A stretch of DNA of 8,873 nt, from contig JAKAEH010000017.1 of assembly GCA_021825955.1 (NCBI GenBank), positions 1 through 8,873 of the forward strand. Direction: 5' to 3'. The DNA is from a bacterium (GTDB lineage Bacteria; Patescibacteria; Microgenomatia; Levybacterales; UBA12049). The translations under genes and the position numbers were made by a program. Positions 129 to 8,808 of this stretch are shown piece by piece (the stretch's first letter is position 1; the number at the start of each line of letters is the position of its first letter). Below the pieces are notes generated by a model that did not search any database, was not told the DNA's origin, and saw only the letters and a program-made list of their open reading frames with translations.

Positions 129-156
129 TTGAGTCCTAGCTTAAACAATTTCGCAA

Positions 157-184
157 TTGACAACCCGACAGAAAGTAATATAAT
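157..184 (+). promoter_or_regulatory. Consensus sigma-70-type promoter
   Basis: TTGACA at 157-162 and TATAAT at 179-184 match both consensus hexamers exactly, with a 16-bp spacer. The expected transcription start, about 7 nt past the -10 box, lies near 190-192, only 3-5 nt before the ATG at 195. The message would therefore be almost leaderless. It also argues against the upstream in-frame TTG at 129, which lies in front of the promoter. Confidence 0.8.
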
Positions 185-194
185 TTGCTCTATT

Positions 195-584
195 ATGGGT
201 GGTTTGGAAGAGGTACGTTATGCTGATGTTCGTGCTCAAGAAGGAGCTTTGCTTCAAAGAGAAACTACTGATGTAGCAAAACAATTTCCACAAGGTAAGT
301 TCCCTTTCTCAGAGGGAAGGAATGGAGAAAGCATCCCCGGGAAAGTAGTAGGTTATCAAATGCGAGGGGCAGAAACGAGAGCTGTAAGCGGAGCTTTTGT
401 TTTGGGGCCTGATGGCGTTTTCCTTCATGATGTAGGTTTCGAAATGAGAATAGGGGGAGGAATAGTGCCATACGTTACTCCTTGCAAAGTCAGAGAAGCA
501 ACTCCGGAGGAACATTTTGATCTTCGAGGGGAAATCAGGAGAGCAAACGACAAACTAAAGGATATAAAGATGAGAAATGGGTAG
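195..584 (+). CDS. Unrecognised small protein (129 aa)
   Basis: I do not recognise this protein. The frame extends back to a TTG at 129, but a perfect promoter lies at 157-184, so the ATG at 195 is the likely start. No Shine-Dalgarno sequence precedes it. The product is soluble, with no signal peptide or membrane helix. Its middle part (about residues 50-95) is rich in glycine and beta-branched residues and looks like beta strands (VVGYQMRG, AFVLGPDGVFLHDVGFEM). The C-terminal 30 residues are charged and helical (EEHFDLRGEIRRANDKLKDI). It is a single-gene unit: the next gene has its own promoter 50 nt downstream. Reality of the gene is supported by the promoter and the long open frame; function is unknown. 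Confidence 0.6.
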   Translation: MGGLEEVRYADVRAQEGALLQRETTDVAKQFPQGKFPFSEGRNGESIPGKVVGYQMRGAETRAVSGAFVLGPDGVFLHDVGFEMRIGGGIVPYVTPCKVREATPEEHFDLRGEIRRANDKLKDIKMRNG

Positions 585-1592: not shown

Positions 1593-2054
1593 ATGAATAA
1601 GCCTCAAAACATACTTTTTAGTTCAGAACTGTTTGATGAAGATACATTCTACAAAGCTTTTTTAAATGACTTAGAAAACTGTAAAAAAGAAATCATTATC
1701 GAAAGCCCTTTTATCACAACAGAAAGGATGAATAGCTTTCGATCGGTCTTTAAAAAGATTTTAGAAAAAGGAATTAGAATTTATGTCATTACGCGTGATC
1801 CAAAAGAGCATAAAGAAACCATGGAATACCAGTCGGAAGAAGAAATAACTAACTTCGAGACAATGGGCGTTCAAACGTTTCTTTGTTCCGGCAATCATCA
1901 TCGGAAGCTGGCTATTATTGACAGAAAGATACTTTGGGAAGGAAGTTTAAATATTCTTTCACAAAACAACAGTAGGGAAATAATGAGAAGAATCGAAAGT
2001 CAAGATTTTGCTTTTGAAATGTTTAATTTTTTAAGACTCAATGAATATATTTAG
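1593..2054 (+). CDS. Phospholipase D-like protein with one HKD motif
   Basis: A 153-residue PLD-superfamily protein (PLDc_2 type, PF13091). The N-terminal half shows the usual strand-helix layout (EIIIESPFIT at 33-42, GIRIYVITRD at 60-69). The catalytic motif is complete: H103-x-K105, D110, then GSLN at 117-120, followed by a conserved-looking EIMRRIES (129-136). Proteins of this kind with a single HKD act as dimers, and the close resemblance of this segment to PLD domains attached to superfamily 1 helicases points to nucleic-acid cleavage and not lipid hydrolysis (family knowledge plus inference). Here the domain stands alone, with no helicase in the window. It has a strong ribosome binding site. 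Its TAG overlaps the stop codon of the convergent XRE gene by 3 nt. A role in nucleic-acid defence together with the adjacent ATPase is possible but not shown. Confidence 0.88.
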   Translation: MNKPQNILFSSELFDEDTFYKAFLNDLENCKKEIIIESPFITTERMNSFRSVFKKILEKGIRIYVITRDPKEHKETMEYQSEEEITNFETMGVQTFLCSGNHHRKLAIIDRKILWEGSLNILSQNNSREIMRRIESQDFAFEMFNFLRLNEYI

Positions 2055-2257
2055 AAAGGCAATATCTCCGAGGATTTAACTTTCAAGGCTTTTGCAATTT
2101 TCTCGATAATATCTATTGATGGGTTTTCTTCCCCTCTTTCGATCCGGGCAAAATAATTTACGTGAATCTCTGCCATATCAGCAACTTCAGCTTGTGTTAA
2201 TTCAGCCTTCAGTCTTGCCTTTTTTATATTTTTTCCGAGTTGTATTTGTGAACCCAT
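2051..2257 (-). CDS. Small XRE-family transcriptional regulator (68 aa)
   Basis: This is a single helix-turn-helix domain of the Cro/C1 (XRE, HTH_3) type that fills the whole protein. The pattern is GKNIKKARLKAELTQAEVAD (8-27), then the recognition-helix region HVNYFARIERG (32-42), then ENPSIDIIEKIAKALKV (44-60). It resembles controller-type repressors of restriction and mobile modules in size and in the IERGxxNPS signature. The frame reaches back to a TTG at 2272, but a TATAAT box lies inside that extension and ends 6 nt before the ATG at 2257, so the shorter start is chosen. It lies 41 nt downstream of the AAA-TOPRIM gene on the same strand but with its own promoter, and plausibly regulates that gene or itself (inference). 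Confidence 0.88.
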   Translation of the reverse strand: MGSQIQLGKNIKKARLKAELTQAEVADMAEIHVNYFARIERGEENPSIDIIEKIAKALKVKSSEILPF

Positions 2258-2298: not shown

Positions 2299-3762
2299 TT
2301 AACTATAGAGGAAATTTGTGAATTTTTTATCAAATACTTTTTTAAGCTGTTTCTTTATTTTTAAATTTTCTAGATATTTCTTAGCAAAACTTTCTTGAGT
2401 AAATCCAAGCTTAGAGATAAGGTCTAAGAGAAAGTATGAAGAATCAAAATTAGCAAAATCCTTTTCTTTAAGCATGCTTGGTTTAATATCTCCCATTAAT
2501 ACAAGTTTATGTTCTTTCTTTTTCTTTGTATTGATTATTTGGCAGATCATTTTTTTAATCTGTTCCGTTGATTTTCCTGAAATCTTTGATAATATTTTGT
2601 AATTTACAAAATATGATTCTAAGCAATATCTAGATAATTTTATAAAATGTGGGTCAGTAGGATGCGGATCTACTTGGTTATCTCCATCAATCAAAAAGTA
2701 CGCTTCTTTGAACAGACCGCGTGATTGACGTTGAGATACACCCGCATACAATGTTGAAATGGCAGTCTTACCATTTAATGACTGAATATTAATACAATTA
2801 CTGGGTTTCCCTATTGTTAATAAAAACTGTTTGATAACTAATTCATGAAACGGATCTTCAACAAACACAGTTTTTGAATCTTGATCTGAGATTACAAATT
2901 TAACAATGTCTCCGCTGATTTCTCTTTTTATAGAATCTGGAACAGATTTGTTAATAATAATTCTTTTTTGTTCATTAAAATATAAAAACTTACAGTTAGC
3001 CCTAAAGCTATCTTCAAAAACAATTCTTGCATGAGTAGTTACAATCACCTGTTTTTTATATGTCTTAGAAAATGTTTTTAGAAATTTGAATAAATTTTCC
3101 TCAAGCGCCCAATTTAAATGAATCTCAGGTTCATCAATAAGTAAAATCTCAAATGAATCACGGAAAAATTGAATATTAAAAACAAGAGATAGAATCTCTT
3201 GCTCACCAGTACTTAATTGGTCTGACTCAAATATATACTTATCGAATTTTTCTACCTGAAAATATGGGGCTCCATTTTTAAAATCCCAATTTATTAATTT
3301 ATAATTTGGAAATATGCTCTTGATTAATTTTCCATATTCTTCTTTAAGTTGCTCGATAATCTGTCCAGCGTTCAAGGTTTTACCTAATTCTTTAAATCTT
3401 TCAAGAAAATCTCTTCCTACAACTTCAGGAAAAGAATAGTAAGGGTCATAAGTATTATCATTAAACACTTTGTTAATAAAATTACCTATAATTGCCGCTT
3501 TTCGTTCTCCACTCCTTTCTATATCTTGATAAATCTGTAATATATTCTTTCGTTCTGAATTTCTTTTTGGGTTGTATAGGAGAGATTTATCTGCTTTTTC
3601 TTCTTTCACTTTTTTAAGTATTGTTGATTTACCAGTACCGTTAGGTCCCGACAAGATAGTAAGCCACTCTTCAAATTCAATTTGGAAATCAATTAGAGGT
3701 AAGTTATCACCCTGCGGATAGAGGTTTATTGCAACATTTTGTATAGGTAAGTTTTTTTCCAC
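2299..3762 (-). CDS. ABC-type ATPase with C-terminal TOPRIM/DUF4435-like region
   Basis: A 487-residue single-polypeptide ATPase of the AAA_15/AAA_21 (OLD-like) kind. All ABC-ATPase motifs are present in order: Walker A GPNGTGKST (39-47), signature LSTGEQE (183-189), Walker B ILLIDEPE (206-213) and switch His in TTHA (His244). After the ATPase, VFVE (Glu302), FLIDGD (Asp359, Asp361) and CLESYF (380-385) fit the acidic core of TOPRIM-type nucleases, in particular DUF4435, whose members show a similar 'sIEnYl' signature. ATPase plus TOPRIM/DUF4435 recalls OLD nucleases and the AriA/AriB pair of PARIS anti-phage systems, here fused (inference). The frame runs 41 codons upstream of GTG 3762, but that extension overlaps the M23 gene out of frame and is not ATPase-like. 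GTG 3762 is the only usable start before Walker A. The gene starts right at the T-tract of the operon terminator and has no ribosome binding site. Confidence 0.85.
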   Translation of the reverse strand: MEKNLPIQNVAINLYPQGDNLPLIDFQIEFEEWLTILSGPNGTGKSTILKKVKEEKADKSLLYNPKRNSERKNILQIYQDIERSGERKAAIIGNFINKVFNDNTYDPYYSFPEVVGRDFLERFKELGKTLNAGQIIEQLKEEYGKLIKSIFPNYKLINWDFKNGAPYFQVEKFDKYIFESDQLSTGEQEILSLVFNIQFFRDSFEILLIDEPEIHLNWALEENLFKFLKTFSKTYKKQVIVTTHARIVFEDSFRANCKFLYFNEQKRIIINKSVPDSIKREISGDIVKFVISDQDSKTVFVEDPFHELVIKQFLLTIGKPSNCINIQSLNGKTAISTLYAGVSQRQSRGLFKEAYFLIDGDNQVDPHPTDPHFIKLSRYCLESYFVNYKILSKISGKSTEQIKKMICQIINTKKKKEHKLVLMGDIKPSMLKEKDFANFDSSYFLLDLISKLGFTQESFAKKYLENLKIKKQLKKVFDKKFTNFLYS

Positions 3763-3781
3763 AAAAAAAGCCCTTTCGGGC
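3763..3781 (-). terminator. Rho-independent terminator of the T4SS-like operon
   Basis: On the minus strand GCCC-GAAA-GGGC (3781-3770) is followed at once by seven T (3769-3763). The stem has only 4 G-C pairs, but C(GAAA)G is a very stable tetraloop. It lies 13 nt after the TAA of the M23 gene. The + strand has no T-tract after the hairpin, so it works in one direction only. The GTG of the ATPase gene follows the last T directly. Confidence 0.75.
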
Positions 3782-3783
3782 AG

Positions 3784-3799
3784 ATGTATACATATTATA
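3784..3799 (-). promoter_or_regulatory. TATAAT box and adjoining 10-bp palindrome before the ATPase gene
   Basis: A minus-strand TATAAT (3799-3794) overlaps the stop codon of the M23 gene, and the perfect palindrome ATGTATACAT (3784-3793) directly follows it. If this -10 box is used, the transcript would start near 3787, inside the palindrome, and its roughly 25-nt leader would consist largely of the terminator hairpin. The palindrome could be an operator for the XRE protein. No -35 box is apparent, and AT-rich stop-codon context could produce such a box by chance. Confidence 0.35.
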
Positions 3800-4427
3800 T
3801 AGGATTTCCAGACAAAAATGTTCTCGGGTTCACAGGTATTCCAAAAACATCTATTTGAAAATGAACATGTGGTCCGGTTGACCAACCCGTGCTTCCCTCA
3901 AGTCCAATTACTTGATCCGTTGTCTTTATTTCTTCACCGGGAATAACCAAAATCTTATCTAAATGCCCATAAATTGACGTTATATTGTTCCCATGGTCAA
4001 TTATGATGTGTTTTCCATATCCCCAGAATATCTCCCCTGCATATATTACTTTTCCGGGCATAAAAGCAGTTACGGGGTCACCAGTTCTGCTTTCGGGGTT
4101 TGCGATATCAATTCCGGTATGAAGTGGTTGATATGGAAGGTCTATTGCACCAAACTCTAAGGTTACAACCCCATGAACAGGCCAAACCATAGGGGCATTA
4201 ATTGTTGCTATAACCTTGCCTGTTGCCGGGTCATGGATTTGGATAGCATTTGTTTGGGTATTAACCGTTGCAAGACGGTCTGAGACTATATCTATTCCAC
4301 TTTGGGTAAGCAAAATGACGGCAACAAAGGGTAAAAGTAAAACTCCGACAAATGTCAAAATGACGTACTTTAATTCTTTTCTAAAAGAAAAGGCTGCAAT
4401 AATTGATTTTATATATAATGGATTCAC
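3795..4427 (-). CDS. Membrane-anchored M23 (LytM-type) metallopeptidase
   Basis: A 210-residue peptidoglycan hydrolase. A short cytoplasmic N-terminus is followed by one transmembrane helix (about 21-41), a linker and a complete M23 domain (about 83-205). The zinc site is intact: H103 and D107 in HTGID, H155 in IYGH, and H187/H189 in GPHVHF. Family members cut peptide cross-links in the wall, outside the membrane. The start is GTG, overlapping the TGA of virB4 (GTGA, 4425-4427), so translation is probably coupled. It is the last gene of the operon and ends 13 nt before the terminator. In conjugation systems such an enzyme opens the wall for the channel; in an episymbiotic Patescibacterium it could also act on the host wall (inference). 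Confidence 0.93.
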   Translation of the reverse strand: MNPLYIKSIIAAFSFRKELKYVILTFVGVLLLPFVAVILLTQSGIDIVSDRLATVNTQTNAIQIHDPATGKVIATINAPMVWPVHGVVTLEFGAIDLPYQPLHTGIDIANPESRTGDPVTAFMPGKVIYAGEIFWGYGKHIIIDHGNNITSIYGHLDKILVIPGEEIKTTDQVIGLEGSTGWSTGPHVHFQIDVFGIPVNPRTFLSGNPI

Positions 4428-6232
4428 TTAAGTTTAAAGCGCTCGGAAGGGGATGTGGTGATAAAAGGATGTTCTTTTTCCGAGGCTACAACTTTTATAG
4501 CAACATGGTTTTGGTCGGCTATTATTAACGCTTCACCTCTGTCGCATCCCAACAAAAACTTTTGTTCGTATTCGCTTAACTTAAATTCACGTGCAACCCC
4601 CCTGATGGTTGTCGTATCTTGTCTCATTAGAATCCTAAGTGATGCTTGCGAGGCTATAGCTTTTCCGTATTCGCTGTTTAAAAAGTCATTTGCTTGCTGG
4701 GAGATAATACTAACCCCTAAAAAGTATTTACGAGCCCTTCTGGTTAATCCCGATACAAACTTTGCACTTTCTTCGTGCTGTAGTAGCATCCACCCTTCAT
4801 CAATAACAAGTAGTCTTTTTTGTAAGTTACTTTTTACTTGGTTATAAACAAAGTTTGAGATAACCATCATCATAATTTGCCTTAATGACTCTGAAAGATC
4901 TTTAATATCAAAAACAACAAGCCTGTTATCAAGTTTTATGTTTGTTTGGGAATCAAAAACGGAAGACAATGAGCCAGTAACATACTTTTCTAGCCTAGTT
5001 GCAAGTTTTCTTTCATGTATTGCCTTAAGTGTTTTATAAAGGTCTTTAAGTAGTGGGTATTCCTGTTCTTTTTTTGGTCTACCCCTGCGTGGTTTTAAGG
5101 ATTTTTTGATTTGCTTCCCTTTGAGGGTAAAACCGAAACCTTTGTAGGTTTGAATTATTGCCTTATCAACCACCGCTTTTTCTTCAGGCGTTAATCCTTC
5201 AACCATTAAAGATACAAGCTCGGTTAAATCTTGTATGTGCTCCGATAAATTGCCCTCACTACTATATGAACTTAAAGAAAAGTCGAAGGGATTTATTTTC
5301 TCTTTCGATTTAACGGAAAACTTTATATACGTTCCCGACACGGAATTTGTTAGTTGTTTATATTCGCGTTCCGGATCAATAACTATCACTTTTGTCCCCT
5401 GCATTAACTGCCTTAGAATTTCCACTTTTGCGGTATATGATTTACCGCTTCCCGACTGGGCAAAGATAATACTGTTTGCGTTATTTAATGAAAATCTGTC
5501 GATTGTTACTAAAGAGTTACTAGATTTATTTATGCCGTAAAGAATCCCTGATTCTGAAACGAGTTCGGAGGATATAAACGGAAAAGTTAGGGCAGCAGAT
5601 GAACTGTCTAAATTCCTTTTTTGCGAAAGTTTATTTTCTCCTCTTGGCAATACCGATTGCAGGGCTTCAAGTTGTTGAAATGTAGCTGTTTTTGCGTAAA
5701 AAAGACGGGTTGATAATACGGTTTCTAAAAGTGTAGTTATTTTATTAAGTTCTATTAAAGAGTTTGCGGTAAGTGTTACATAAATTGAGATTTGGAATAG
5801 CTTTTCCTGCCCTCTTTGGATTTTGTTCTTAAGCTCAATTGCAGACTCTAGCGGATCTAATATTTCAGAACCGATAATTTTTCCTGTCTGTTGCATTGAG
5901 CGTTTGGTTGACTCTAATTCCGTTATTTTCCTATTTAGCTTTGGAAGGGCAAGATAAGGGTCGATTTGTTCAATGTGATAGGAGATATCAATGTTATGGT
6001 TAAAGTTAATAAGCATATTAAGCCATCCGGTTGAGGCAACATAAGGAAAACCGGAAATAAATAGTGTTCGAACAAATTTATTCTCCATCTGAAGGTAGGT
6101 AGACTGTTCTTCAAGCCCCGAATAAGAAATAAGATCAATTTGATCTTGTTCTCCGAAATTGAAGTTTAGGGATTCCGAAAGCTTTTTCGCTTTCTTCTTT
6201 TTGCTTTCAAGATATTTTAGGTTAAATAGCAT
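4424..6232 (-). CDS. virB4: VirB4/TraC-type secretion ATPase
   Basis: A 602-residue VirB4-family ATPase that powers type IV secretion/pilus assembly at the inner face of the membrane. An N-terminal region typical of PrgI-associated VirB4 (NKFVRTLFISGFP then GWLNML, about 51-74) is followed by the RecA-like motor: Walker A AQSGSGKS (258-265), DPEREY (286-291), Walker B LLVIDEGW (474-481), SQQ (511-513) and GCDRGEA near 562. A basic insert, PRRGRPKK, with an AT-hook-like RGRP core lies at about 381-388. Two starts are possible: GTG 6265 (613 aa) or ATG 6232 (602 aa). The ATG is preferred because it overlaps the preceding stop by only 11 nt and because the extra 11 residues lie wholly in the overlap. 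Neither has a ribosome binding site, so coupling is likely. Confidence 0.93.
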   Translation of the reverse strand: MLFNLKYLESKKKKAKKLSESLNFNFGEQDQIDLISYSGLEEQSTYLQMENKFVRTLFISGFPYVASTGWLNMLINFNHNIDISYHIEQIDPYLALPKLNRKITELESTKRSMQQTGKIIGSEILDPLESAIELKNKIQRGQEKLFQISIYVTLTANSLIELNKITTLLETVLSTRLFYAKTATFQQLEALQSVLPRGENKLSQKRNLDSSSAALTFPFISSELVSESGILYGINKSSNSLVTIDRFSLNNANSIIFAQSGSGKSYTAKVEILRQLMQGTKVIVIDPEREYKQLTNSVSGTYIKFSVKSKEKINPFDFSLSSYSSEGNLSEHIQDLTELVSLMVEGLTPEEKAVVDKAIIQTYKGFGFTLKGKQIKKSLKPRRGRPKKEQEYPLLKDLYKTLKAIHERKLATRLEKYVTGSLSSVFDSQTNIKLDNRLVVFDIKDLSESLRQIMMMVISNFVYNQVKSNLQKRLLVIDEGWMLLQHEESAKFVSGLTRRARKYFLGVSIISQQANDFLNSEYGKAIASQASLRILMRQDTTTIRGVAREFKLSEYEQKFLLGCDRGEALIIADQNHVAIKVVASEKEHPFITTSPSERFKLK

Positions 6233-6839
6233 AAGTGTTATTAAATAAAGCCTTAAAGGTTTCACTTGTTAATTCTTGGGATTTAATCTGGTCGGGGTTA
6301 TAGAACTTATAGAATAACTCCAATAATTCAAGATTGTTTAGTGGTCTTGTTTTCATCCCTAACTTCTCAAGTCCCTTTGAAACAATATCCTGATTAAGTA
6401 AAATTTGCTCTTTTACCATTGAAAAATCGGTTGTTTTGTCCGTTGGTTTATAAGGAATAACAATATAAAACTTACGGGACAAAATCTTATTTCCCGAAAC
6501 CAAGTTTTGGATAAACTCGCAATAGTTTTTTATTTGTTCAATGTACACTTTTTCCGCTTCTCCGCTTAAATTCTTGGAAAACTCTTCCAAGTAACGATCA
6601 ATGTCTACTTCTCTAACTCTTATAAGTATTTGAAGGGGACAAGGAAGAGAGTTTAAAAAGTTTTGGAAGTTATCGATTAAAGTGTCCTGCTCATCCTCAC
6701 TTTTAAGCTCAAAATTAATAGAAGAGGTTTCAAGAATTGTCCGGTAATTATTGTTTGGTAAAACCAAAACACTATCCCTTACTTCTTTTATTTGTATTTG
6801 AGATCTTGCGGATGCTTTAGATTTTTTGAAGGTGAACAT
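6222..6839 (-). CDS. VirB4 N-terminal-like (TraC-type) protein
   Basis: A 205-residue soluble protein matching the N-terminal, non-ATPase region of VirB4/TraC proteins: INFELKSEDEQ (41-51), FLNSLPCPLQI (61-71), KFYIVIPY (123-130) and ELFYKFYNP near its end (174-182). There is no Walker motif. It therefore looks like a separate gene for a VirB4 docking domain, encoded just before the ATPase itself. Such small TraC-like proteins are, as far as I recall, common in Patescibacteria clusters. It presumably binds PrgI/VirB6 at the membrane and VirB4 (inference). Translation starts at ATG 6839, 5 nt after a perfect AAAGGAGG, within the end of the PrgI gene (23-nt overlap). Confidence 0.85.
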   Translation of the reverse strand: MFTFKKSKASARSQIQIKEVRDSVLVLPNNNYRTILETSSINFELKSEDEQDTLIDNFQNFLNSLPCPLQILIRVREVDIDRYLEEFSKNLSGEAEKVYIEQIKNYCEFIQNLVSGNKILSRKFYIVIPYKPTDKTTDFSMVKEQILLNQDIVSKGLEKLGMKTRPLNNLELLELFYKFYNPDQIKSQELTSETFKALFNNTYAI

Positions 6840-7311
6840 TTACCCCTCCTTTCTGAAAGCTTATTTTGGCATTAGGATTATTGAGCAAGTTTTCAATTAT
6901 TGCCTGTTCTGCAATTTTAAGTTTATTAACAACTTTTGTGTCTTTTGCGTGTGATTTAGCTTTAGTTTTATTCTTAGTCTCAAAAATAGGCAAAACAACA
7001 TCTCTTAGCGTTACGTCATTTTTATTAAATACATAGAAACGTGGTCTAAAGTAATAGGCCGATAAAACAAATAGCCAATTTAAAACAACGCGCCCCTTTA
7101 TACGTAACGAAAGCGTAATAAATGTTATGAAGTTAATGATAAATAAAGGGAATTTATAGAAGGTTAAAGATAGCCTGTGGGGAAATACAGCATAAATAAA
7201 GGTTGCAACAAAAAGAGATGCGAGCAATAAGATAATTTGAGTTAAATTAAGATTTGCCGCAATTCTATCCTCAACCGTTGTAATTTGTGCCGGTATTACT
7301 GTTGTTCTCAT
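6817..7311 (-). CDS. PrgI-family inner-membrane protein
   Basis: A 164-residue PrgI-family protein (PF12666 type), the VirB3-like partner of VirB4 in type IV systems lacking an outer-membrane complex. The N-terminus has the family signature IPAQITTVEDRI (6-17), followed by two membrane helices (about 23-43 and 53-70) and the conserved segment LNWLFVLSAYYFRPRFYVF (77-95). The C-terminal 60 residues are basic and probably cytoplasmic. ATG 7311 overlaps the TGA of the VirB6-like gene (ATGA) and has an AAGGAGG ribosome binding site 5 nt upstream, inside the end of that gene. Its 3' end overlaps the next gene by 23 nt, which indicates tight co-expression. Confidence 0.9.
   Translation of the reverse strand: MRTTVIPAQITTVEDRIAANLNLTQIILLLASLFVATFIYAVFPHRLSLTFYKFPLFIINFITFITLSLRIKGRVVLNWLFVLSAYYFRPRFYVFNKNDVTLRDVVLPIFETKNKTKAKSHAKDTKVVNKLKIAEQAIIENLLNNPNAKISFQKGGVNVHLQKI
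6845..6852 (-). promoter_or_regulatory. Ribosome binding site of the VirB4-N gene
   Basis: AAAGGAGG on the minus strand, 5 nt before ATG 6839, inside the 3' end of the PrgI gene. It decides the start. Confidence 0.8.
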
Positions 7312-8597
7312 GCCATCCTCCTTCTTGGCGCAATTTTTGGTGCGACCGCTTTTGTAGCAGTAGCAGTTGCCTCTCCCGCGCTGGAGATAACATTCATAAC
7401 CTGTCCTCCTATTTTTTTAATGACTTGCCGTCCACCGCTATACATGACTAACTGCATCATAATTGATGGGGTTTTAAGAAGAGTAAAAAAGAGCCCGATT
7501 CCGACAAGTATTGATAAAAGTGAGTTTGTTCCATGTTGTCCAGGAACTGTTAAGAATGCCGATGCAAGCTGAATTAAAACAACATGAACAAACACGCTAT
7601 AAACTGCACTGATATATGTTTTAACAGAAATTTCGGCGTAATCTGCAAATTTGGGAACGGACCAAAGAAGAAATATTAAAGGGGAAAGTACTGCTCCCAA
7701 TGCTATAACAATAAGTCGGGAGATATAAAATAATAGTAGAACTACTGCTAAAATTACAAACAGGATCATAAATATAAGAGTTATTAAGTTTGTTGATCCG
7801 GCAACAAGACTTGATGGGTCAAAGGCATTTAAAACCCATGCGCTATTTATCCCTCCGGTTGAATGAAGTACGGCTTGTACAAGCACGTTACATGATAAAA
7901 CTACCCAATCAACCAAAAATATAGAAATGTTTGCGCCCAAAAATGCTAACCCTACACGGGGAAGAAGGTGTTTAAATTCTATTTCGTCAAACCCGAAAGT
8001 TGAGGCACTCATCACATGAAAGCCTAAAAGTGCCACCATTAAAGCAAAGAGGGAATTTGTGATCCCTAAAATTACTAACCAAAAGTTAAAGATAACGGAG
8101 TTTGTGACAATTGAAGGTGTTGTTGTAAGAAATGAGATTATTCCATCGGTCAAGGGTTTTGTAGCACTTTGAATGATGTTTTGTAAAAACCCTGCTATTG
8201 CATCAATCAGAACTTGGGTTAACCCACCGCTAGGTGTTGTTGGAGTAATGGGAGTAAGACTTAATTGAGAAGAAGTTGAAGATATTGTCGGGGCATTGAA
8301 AGCATTTTGGAAAAGGGATGAGATAAACCCTGCTCCAATTACTAAGACTAGACCGATTAAAGAATTTCTAATAGTTTTTTTTGCTTCCTCAATAGAATCG
8401 GGTTTTCCGACTGAGGTTATATACATATATCCTCCACGGATTAAAAATAAGACTGAGGCAAGAGAAGTAATAATAAAAAGGGTGGATAGTGTTTGATTAG
8501 TGAAGTTTAAAACATCACTGTTTTGTGCGGCATATGCTTTTATCGGCATAGCCACGAATATAAATCCTACAAAAAATAAAATTTTTAATAATTTCAT
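7308..8597 (-). CDS. VirB2-like pilin fused to VirB6/TrbL-like channel protein
   Basis: A 429-residue polytopic protein. Residues 1-23 form a signal peptide (lysines, hydrophobic core, likely cleavage at AYA-A). Residues 24-100 are a TrbC/VirB2-type pilin domain with two helices and the signature YMYITSVGKPDSIEEAKKTI (57-76). A Ser/Thr/Pro/Gly linker (about 101-124) leads to a VirB6/TrbL-like domain (125-400) with five or six further helices (about 168-192, 215-243, 270-310, 326-350, 358-375). The basic tail PRRRMA ends it. VirB6 proteins build the inner-membrane channel; fusion to a pilin domain would tether a pilin-like unit to the channel. The pilin part closely parallels the preceding gene. 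ATG 8597 has no ribosome binding site but lies 13 nt after the pilin stop. Confidence 0.87.
   Translation of the reverse strand: MKLLKILFFVGFIFVAMPIKAYAAQNSDVLNFTNQTLSTLFIITSLASVLFLIRGGYMYITSVGKPDSIEEAKKTIRNSLIGLVLVIGAGFISSLFQNAFNAPTISSTSSQLSLTPITPTTPSGGLTQVLIDAIAGFLQNIIQSATKPLTDGIISFLTTTPSIVTNSVIFNFWLVILGITNSLFALMVALLGFHVMSASTFGFDEIEFKHLLPRVGLAFLGANISIFLVDWVVLSCNVLVQAVLHSTGGINSAWVLNAFDPSSLVAGSTNLITLIFMILFVILAVVLLLFYISRLIVIALGAVLSPLIFLLWSVPKFADYAEISVKTYISAVYSVFVHVVLIQLASAFLTVPGQHGTNSLLSILVGIGLFFTLLKTPSIMMQLVMYSGGRQVIKKIGGQVMNVISSAGEATATATKAVAPKIAPRRRMA
7317..7323 (-). promoter_or_regulatory. Ribosome binding site of the PrgI gene
   Basis: AAGGAGG on the minus strand, 5 nt before ATG 7311. 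It also encodes the Arg-Arg-Arg near the C-terminus of the VirB6-like protein. Confidence 0.75.
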
Positions 8598-8610
8598 TTT
8601 GTTTTAAAGT

Positions 8611-8808
8611 TTAATGTGTTCCAAAAGCTCCCGTTGCTGTTTGAGCAACAATATTACTTATTACAAATGCTCCAAGAGTTACAGCAAGACCAATTGCTGA
8701 GTACATAATTGTTTTTTTTGCTCCATCTAAAGCTTCGGGATTTCCACTTGATGTTATGTATCTGACCCCTCCCCATACAAAAAAGCCTGACGCTAGTAAT
8801 CCTGCCAT
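8611..8808 (-). CDS. TrbC/VirB2-like pilin, N-terminal part apparently disrupted
   Basis: From ATG 8808 the product has 65 residues: a first membrane helix (about 1-16), the motif GGVRYITSSGNPEALDGAKK (13-32), which aligns with the pilin domain of the next gene, and a second helix (about 35-52). This is the core of a TrbC/VirB2-type pilin. The homologous sequence continues upstream of the ATG without a break in frame (AADVTKVQSFIENIIQ, 8868-8821) up to a TAA at 8871-8869, just where a signal peptide should end. ATG 8808 is therefore probably not the native start: it lacks a ribosome binding site and would begin inside helix 1. The gene is either damaged, affected by a sequence error, or differently started beyond the window. 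It is the first gene of the operon visible here. Confidence 0.7.
   Translation of the reverse strand: MAGLLASGFFVWGGVRYITSSGNPEALDGAKKTIMYSAIGLAVTLGAFVISNIVAQTATGAFGTH

Follow-up and report, generated by a model that had tools for sequence, protein, structure and literature searches.

A compact ABC ATPase-TOPRIM protein from a patescibacterium: a probable single-gene defence nuclease related to PARIS and HEC-04/IbfA

The closest described relatives of the protein considered here are anti-phage systems that pair an ABC ATPase with a TOPRIM nuclease. PARIS is reported to be encoded either by a cassette of two genes or by one fused gene (Rousset 2022, PMC9122126), and its AriA component is described as holding AriB until a trigger such as Ocr frees it, whereupon AriB dimerises and cuts tRNA (PMC11455837; PMC12409363). 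HEC-04, an ABC ATPase fused to TOPRIM, is reported to act against T4 and T5, and IbfA, a 518-residue protein from an IncI1 plasmid, is described as a single-gene ATPase-TOPRIM defence against a P22-like phage (PMC12111858). Here we analyse a stretch of 8,873 nucleotides from a member of the Levybacterales (Patescibacteria; contig JAKAEH010000017.1), referred to in its entirety as the window, which encodes a compact fused ABC ATPase-TOPRIM protein of 487 residues. Since single-gene PARIS, HEC-04 and IbfA are already described in these accounts, the fusion is not new as an architecture, and the suggestion of an earlier note on this DNA that the fused form is itself noteworthy is not supported. 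What does appear to be new, by the libraries and literature searched, is that the compact proteins form a clade apart, marked by a metal-loop signature of their own. We conclude that the window protein is probably a nuclease directed against phages (or mobile elements), encoded by a single gene and belonging to the ABC-ATPase-TOPRIM superfamily, within a compact clade related to PARIS and HEC-04/IbfA. The analysis establishes the open reading frame (ORF), its two domains, the predicted fold, the conserved catalytic residues, the clade membership, a patchy spread and the presence of restriction genes near some relatives.

The N-terminal domain contains conserved G39-PNGTGKS, L183-STGE, LLIDE211, HLNW and H244 motifs, which we take to be the Walker A, signature, Walker B, D-loop and H-loop, respectively; the full ABC set that the earlier note had read in this ORF is therefore present and conserved. 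Pfam places AAA_15 (PF13175, E = 2.8e-13, 50.7 bits) and AAA_21 (PF13304, E = 5e-12, 46.9 bits) on the protein, both above the cut-off.

A protein search listed 69 homologues, of which seven (P0049 and P0065-P0070) were excluded from the alignment as truncated or ATPase-only, leaving 62 that were aligned with the query (63 rows). Glu302, Asp303 and Asp359 are found in all 63 rows, Asp361 in 62, Tyr384 in 60 and Glu382 in 58, and position 306 is a histidine in 50 rows and a glutamine in 10. Because 23 columns are invariant when 57 of the 62 non-query rows are just 25-39% identical to the query, the conservation is far beyond chance. In the predicted models, Glu302 lies directly after the strand formed by residues 297-301, and Asp359 and Asp361 directly after strand 354-358. 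Acidic residues immediately following these strands occupy the usual TOPRIM places. The fold and the alignment together suggest that Glu302, Asp359 and Asp361, the acidic core proposed in the earlier note, are clustered as a putative TOPRIM site. By its predicted structure the C-terminal region is a TOPRIM domain, and a structure search with this nuclease half gave AriB as the nearest solved structure, in agreement with the AriB-like fold that had been anticipated. A viral fold library returned no match at E<=0.001. The VIA structure search with the whole protein was led by PtuA, with rows nearly all confined to residues 1-288, and hence did not probe the TOPRIM half.

Relatives were collected by a pattern-limited scan with one genome per species, which found 232, and the best 80 loci were kept. 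Among the best 14 loci, the ORF has 481-507 residues in 11 and 565 residues, counted from the first start upstream, in locus L002. Two copies are truncated and end inside the TOPRIM part (L006:7941-9017, 358 residues; L014:3165-4367, 400 residues), a shortening that may reflect decay, sequencing error or a contig effect. A further 52 loci were examined. Long ORFs of 619-738 residues, labelled fused PARIS here, are present at 43; the ORFs at the other nine are shorter, and five of these are stand-alone TOPRIM ORFs. All five long ORFs scored with PADLOC had AriAB first, and 38 of the 43 match the compact TOPRIM profile above 10 bits, mostly from residue ~420-460. The Pfam DUF4435 match was above the cut-off in one and below it in the other of two long ORFs scanned. 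The five stand-alone TOPRIM ORFs (L034, L046, L050, L064 and L066) lie at sites where the match continues from the ATPase part; their identification as AriB was rejected, as none has a Pfam DUF4435 match and L066 is also without a match to AriB in the PDB.

Two narrower versions of our conclusion can be compared with these families. The protein could be a divergent, shorter single-gene PARIS (AriAB) that responds to the same kind of trigger (DNA-mimic or anti-restriction proteins) and has the same tRNA-cleaving effector, a proposal we consider less likely than not; or it could belong with the HEC-04/IbfA abortive-infection factors and target phage DNA or transcription instead of tRNA, which we consider slightly less likely still. 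With PARIS the protein shares an ABC ATPase joined to an AriB-like TOPRIM domain and the E / DxD / E-N-Y pattern. The (N/S)-Y pair after E382 and the Walker B/D-loop sequence D-E-P-E-x-H-L-N are common to the compact clade and fused PARIS (in fused PARIS, E382, N383 and every fixed position of that Walker B/D-loop sequence are kept in 26/26 rows), whereas the four HEC-04 rows lack E-N-Y and have a different Walker B/D-loop, which favours the first version over the second. The CLESYF motif of the window protein, likened to that of DUF4435 in the earlier note, does align with the C/H-(I/L/F)-E-N-Y motif of fused PARIS. In contrast, members of the compact clade have ~490 residues compared to ~690 in fused PARIS, with ~130 fewer between Walker A and the signature; the median spacing of the Walker A lysine and the signature serine is 146 in 39 compact and 274 in 26 fused PARIS rows, against 151 in four HEC-04 and 232 in three OLD rows. 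The compact proteins thus resemble HEC-04/IbfA in being single genes of ~500 residues (medians 491 vs 507 for HEC-04) with a short insert, and share V-E-D and D-G-D with HEC-04; the sequence features in this comparison come from HEC-04, IbfA being compared by description. The first metal loop reads V-E-D-x-x-(H/Q) in compact rows, with D303 in 39/39, H306 in 32/39 and glutamine in 6/39. It reads V-E-G-x-x-D in fused PARIS, with the glycine and the aspartate each in 26/26, and E-D with an alanine at the later position in the four HEC-04 rows. Private to the compact rows are the P-K-R-N motif at residues 65-68 (39, 35, 39 and 38 of 39) and H-L-N-W in the D-loop. In its sequence features, the compact clade thus combines those of both known single-gene kinds.

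Profile scores divide in a similar manner. Among the PADLOC families, AriAB scores the window protein best, with 86 bits and a best stretch of 124-408, and all 63 aligned members match it at E<=1e-5; however, this profile gives 248-650 bits for the five long fusions and just 51-97 bits for four other compact members, whose matches cover part of the model. The single-gene PARIS-like system suggested in the earlier note was right in kind, but does not extend to PARIS proper, as the AriAB match is just 86 bits over partial length. A genome-level search with the AriAB profile was discarded as a membership test since all 14 control genomes also match. The HEC-04 profile scores 43.9 bits for the window protein compared to 640 for one HEC-04 member. 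When TOPRIM halves are scored alone, the window protein (21.9 bits) and L001 (14.9 bits) have HEC-04 as their top family, and L003 (25.5 bits) and L010 (36.6 bits) have AriAB.

The full-length tree contains 72 rows, including 39 compact rows and 26 of the 43 long ORFs picked by hand. The 39 compact rows form one side of a branch with a Shimodaira-Hasegawa-like approximate likelihood ratio test (SH-aLRT) value of 100, and the order among PARIS, HEC-04 and the compact clade is left without resolution. They also stay together in the ATPase-part tree (100/100), which leans weakly to PARIS (52/36) and lacks the union with HEC-04, although this union is not rejected (approximately unbiased (AU) test, p 0.083). 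In the TOPRIM-part tree the compact rows join HEC-04 (99/97.8), as the HEC-04 version would predict, yet a union with PARIS is not rejected there (AU p 0.225). In this tree two changes are needed for the compact rows (a single one in 18% of 200 bootstrap trees) and three for the 26 fused PARIS rows, so neither is a clean group in it.

OLD class 1 nucleases and GajA (Gabija) also consist of an ABC ATPase fused to TOPRIM, but the window nuclease half scores lower to these than to AriB. The OLD-like TOPRIM family PF20469 has no Pfam match in the window protein at E up to 1, and a Pfam scan of 10 window ORFs showed no GajB-type UvrD-like helicase partner. It is highly improbable that the protein is a retron type I-B ATPase-TOPRIM effector whose reverse transcriptase is encoded elsewhere. 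Domain order and size are alike, and the PADLOC profile ATPase-Toprim_I-B gives 61.7 bits for the window protein and 66 bits over nearly the full length for L001; but the 10 window ORFs include no reverse transcriptase by Pfam, and Rfam had no match. RVT_1 was sought in the genomes of 13 relatives: it is missing from six and has a match in seven, on another contig or >400 kb away in four of these, the other three (G385, G433 and G435) being undecided as to its distance from the gene. With 10 of 13 genomes having no reverse transcriptase near the gene, where contigs could be matched, the retron assignment is disfavoured. True type I-B ATPase-TOPRIM proteins were found in 0/38 genomes at E<=1e-40, 0/229 at E<=1e-50 and 0/14 controls, and hence this group is missing from the trees.

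ORFs were listed at the 14 best loci, and 20 hand-picked neighbour ORFs were scanned from 10 of them (L001-L004 and L007-L012; none from L005, L006, L013 or L014). At L004:1718-6383, a clade member sits between an N6-methylase/HSDR_N ORF and an HsdS-like ORF, with gaps of a few bases, in a type I restriction-modification operon. This arrangement is a candidate restriction-guarding operon, and it suits the PARIS version. An OLD gene neighbours the L009 member; an EcoRI-type methylase and GmrSD/HNH are found at L011, and a LexA-methylase ORF and a restriction-like ORF below Pfam cut-offs at L012. Elsewhere, the neighbours are PIN and nucleotidyltransferase (L003), Replic_Relax and DUF2958 (L001), phage baseplate (L008), Fic (L010) and RDD (L007) proteins. 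At L002:1722-7363, three ORFs read in the same direction precede the clade member (HATPase_c_3, one with no Pfam match, and RNAP-alpha-CTD/sigma70_r4), possibly an unusual operon.

Five of the best 14 loci are from patescibacterial lineages (L001, L002, L004, L011 and L012), two each from archaea, Bacteroidota and Pseudomonadota (Thermomonas and Methylomagnum), and one each from Archangiaceae (Myxococcota), Dehalococcoidales and Poribacteria. This patchy spread fits horizontal transfer of a defence gene. A member at E<=1e-20 is present in 3 of 379 sampled Patescibacteria genomes, the same three already known from the earlier scan, so that this is not an unbiased rate. Viral contigs gave no match with the single-protein query and six loci with the alignment query, at 21-29% identity in the best segment and with no close member; seven plasmid records and one phage record matched, none covering 80% of the query.

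We infer a defence role, ATP gating and growth arrest for the compact clade. Most likely, the ATPase halves would dimerise on ATP and restrain the attached TOPRIM nuclease in cis. On infection, a signal would then shift the ATPase conformation and allow the TOPRIM domains to pair. With E302 / D359-x-D361 / E382 as their metal site, the paired domains would cut nucleic acid, and growth would stop before the phage finishes its cycle. Because sensor and nuclease form one chain, activation would occur by rearrangement in place, and not by release of the nuclease as in two-gene PARIS. An anti-restriction protein is our guess for the trigger, and tRNA, by analogy with AriB, is a conceivable though questionable substrate.

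Several observations weigh against a defence nuclease of this kind. The whole-protein model has a predicted template modelling (pTM) score of just 0.63, and its top Foldseek match is the class 1 OLD nuclease 6p74 (E 3.9e-9), not PARIS, followed by GajA. Pfam DUF4435 (PF14491) has no match in the 487-residue window protein, and matches 11 of the 63 aligned family members at E<=0.01; for the same domain, hhalign gave 98.9% to 38 fused-PARIS and five stand-alone TOPRIM rows. Because the compact loop is E-D-x-x-H, compared to E-G-x-x-D in fused PARIS and the stand-alone TOPRIM ORFs (positions E+1 and E+4), it is unsafe to transfer the substrate of AriB, and tRNA is uncertain. Only 4 of the 10 scanned loci have restriction-modification or OLD genes nearby, as counted in hand-picked ORFs and with no control set, and the window itself has no restriction or other nameable defence gene, the gene following a conserved type IV secretion system (T4SS) module. 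A functional test of any compact-clade member was not found in the literature searched, and other host roles have been suggested for IbfA homologues (PMC12111858). It is accordingly conceivable, but unlikely, that the protein is a non-defence, OLD-like ATPase-nuclease for DNA maintenance or element stability on mobile elements; the T4SS module, the Replic_Relax and DUF2958 genes of L001, the OLD match and the roles proposed for IbfA homologues would agree with this, whereas the restriction-modification or OLD genes near relatives and the similarity to tested defences argue for the defence reading.

No paper in the literature searched was recognised as describing the compact clade. A bolder proposal, which we regard as speculative and on the unlikely side, is that it represents a third lineage of one-gene ATPase-TOPRIM defence, as yet without a name and distinct from both PARIS and HEC-04. 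Such a lineage would combine a sensor as short as that of HEC-04 with ATPase and E-N-Y motifs like those of PARIS and with a rewired E-D-x-x-H loop; its nuclease, tied to the sensor, would be switched on by rearrangement and not by release, and would guard restriction systems in bacteria and archaea with tiny genomes. At ~490 residues, with shared and private active-site features, these proteins are amenable to single-gene constructs, and they give Patescibacteria a candidate defence gene to which the profile libraries used respond only weakly. An aquifer genome survey notes that the candidate phyla radiation (CPR) may hold systems that present methods miss (PMC12259885).

The features of the window are collected in the table below. 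The T4SS order TrbL-PrgI-orf-VirB4-M23 is kept in relatives (20 loci examined). The window is Microgenomates-like patescibacterial sequence: of the top 120 homologues of its VirB4-like ATPase, those with names have 75-79% identity and come mostly from Levybacteria, Woykebacteria, Daviesbacteria, Gottesmanbacteria, Microgenomates and Patescibacteria, with two differently named metagenome-assembled genomes. No match to the ATPase-TOPRIM gene was found in the 0.86-0.89 kb past a whole M23 gene at 12 loci (L107-L112 and L114-L119). Since the T4SS order is conserved while these 12 relatives are without the gene past M23, the ATPase-TOPRIM gene resembles an accessory cargo gene placed where a conserved secretion module ends. 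The genome of L001 (G001) holds both a clade member and the T4SS, on different contigs (C93 and C85).

Table. Features of the window discussed in the text, with positions on the 8,873-nucleotide stretch
Feature	Position	Strand	Details	Basis
Compact fused ABC ATPase-TOPRIM protein	2299..3762	(-)	487 aa, GTG start at 3762, stop to 2299	ORF call and homologues
ABC-type ATPase domain, residues 1 to ~270	2953..3762	(-)	Walker A 39-46, PKRN 65-68, signature 183-187, Walker B 206-211, D-loop HLNW 215-218, H244	
TOPRIM nuclease domain, residues 284-487	2299..2913	(-)	E302 D303 H306 / D359 D361 / E382-S-Y	
Small helix-turn-helix (HTH; Cro/C1-like) regulator	2051..2257	(-)	Downstream, same strand; ATG 2257, longer TTG start 2272	HTH_3 2.5e-14
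PLD-like protein, 153 aa	1593-2054	(+)	Convergent with HTH gene	PF13091 6e-13; PADLOC best MkoC 46.8 bits
151-aa ORF	129-584	(+)	No match in PADLOC or NCBIfam	
Patescibacterial T4SS module	3795-8808	(-)	Pilin, TrbL-like, PrgI-like, orf, VirB4-like, M23 peptidase	
Hairpin GCCC-GAAA-GGGC then seven T	3764-3782	(-)	Directly before GTG start; Shine-Dalgarno-like AAGGG within	

The small HTH protein resembles RstR (54.7 bits, under the cut-off of 80). A phmmer search of the ORFs at the 14 relatives' loci with the HTH, PLD-like and T4SS proteins of the window gave a single match, a weak HTH 1.4 kb from the gene in L010, other HTH families and kinds of regulator being outside this search. The HTH gene is probably local and not part of a conserved system, contrary to the idea that the ATPase-TOPRIM gene has its own small regulator. 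The PLD-like protein is possibly another nuclease cargo gene. The hairpin has a 4-bp stem, folds just weakly better than shuffles (z -1.6) and is absent from the terminator scan; it could be a terminator of the T4SS operon or an attenuator.
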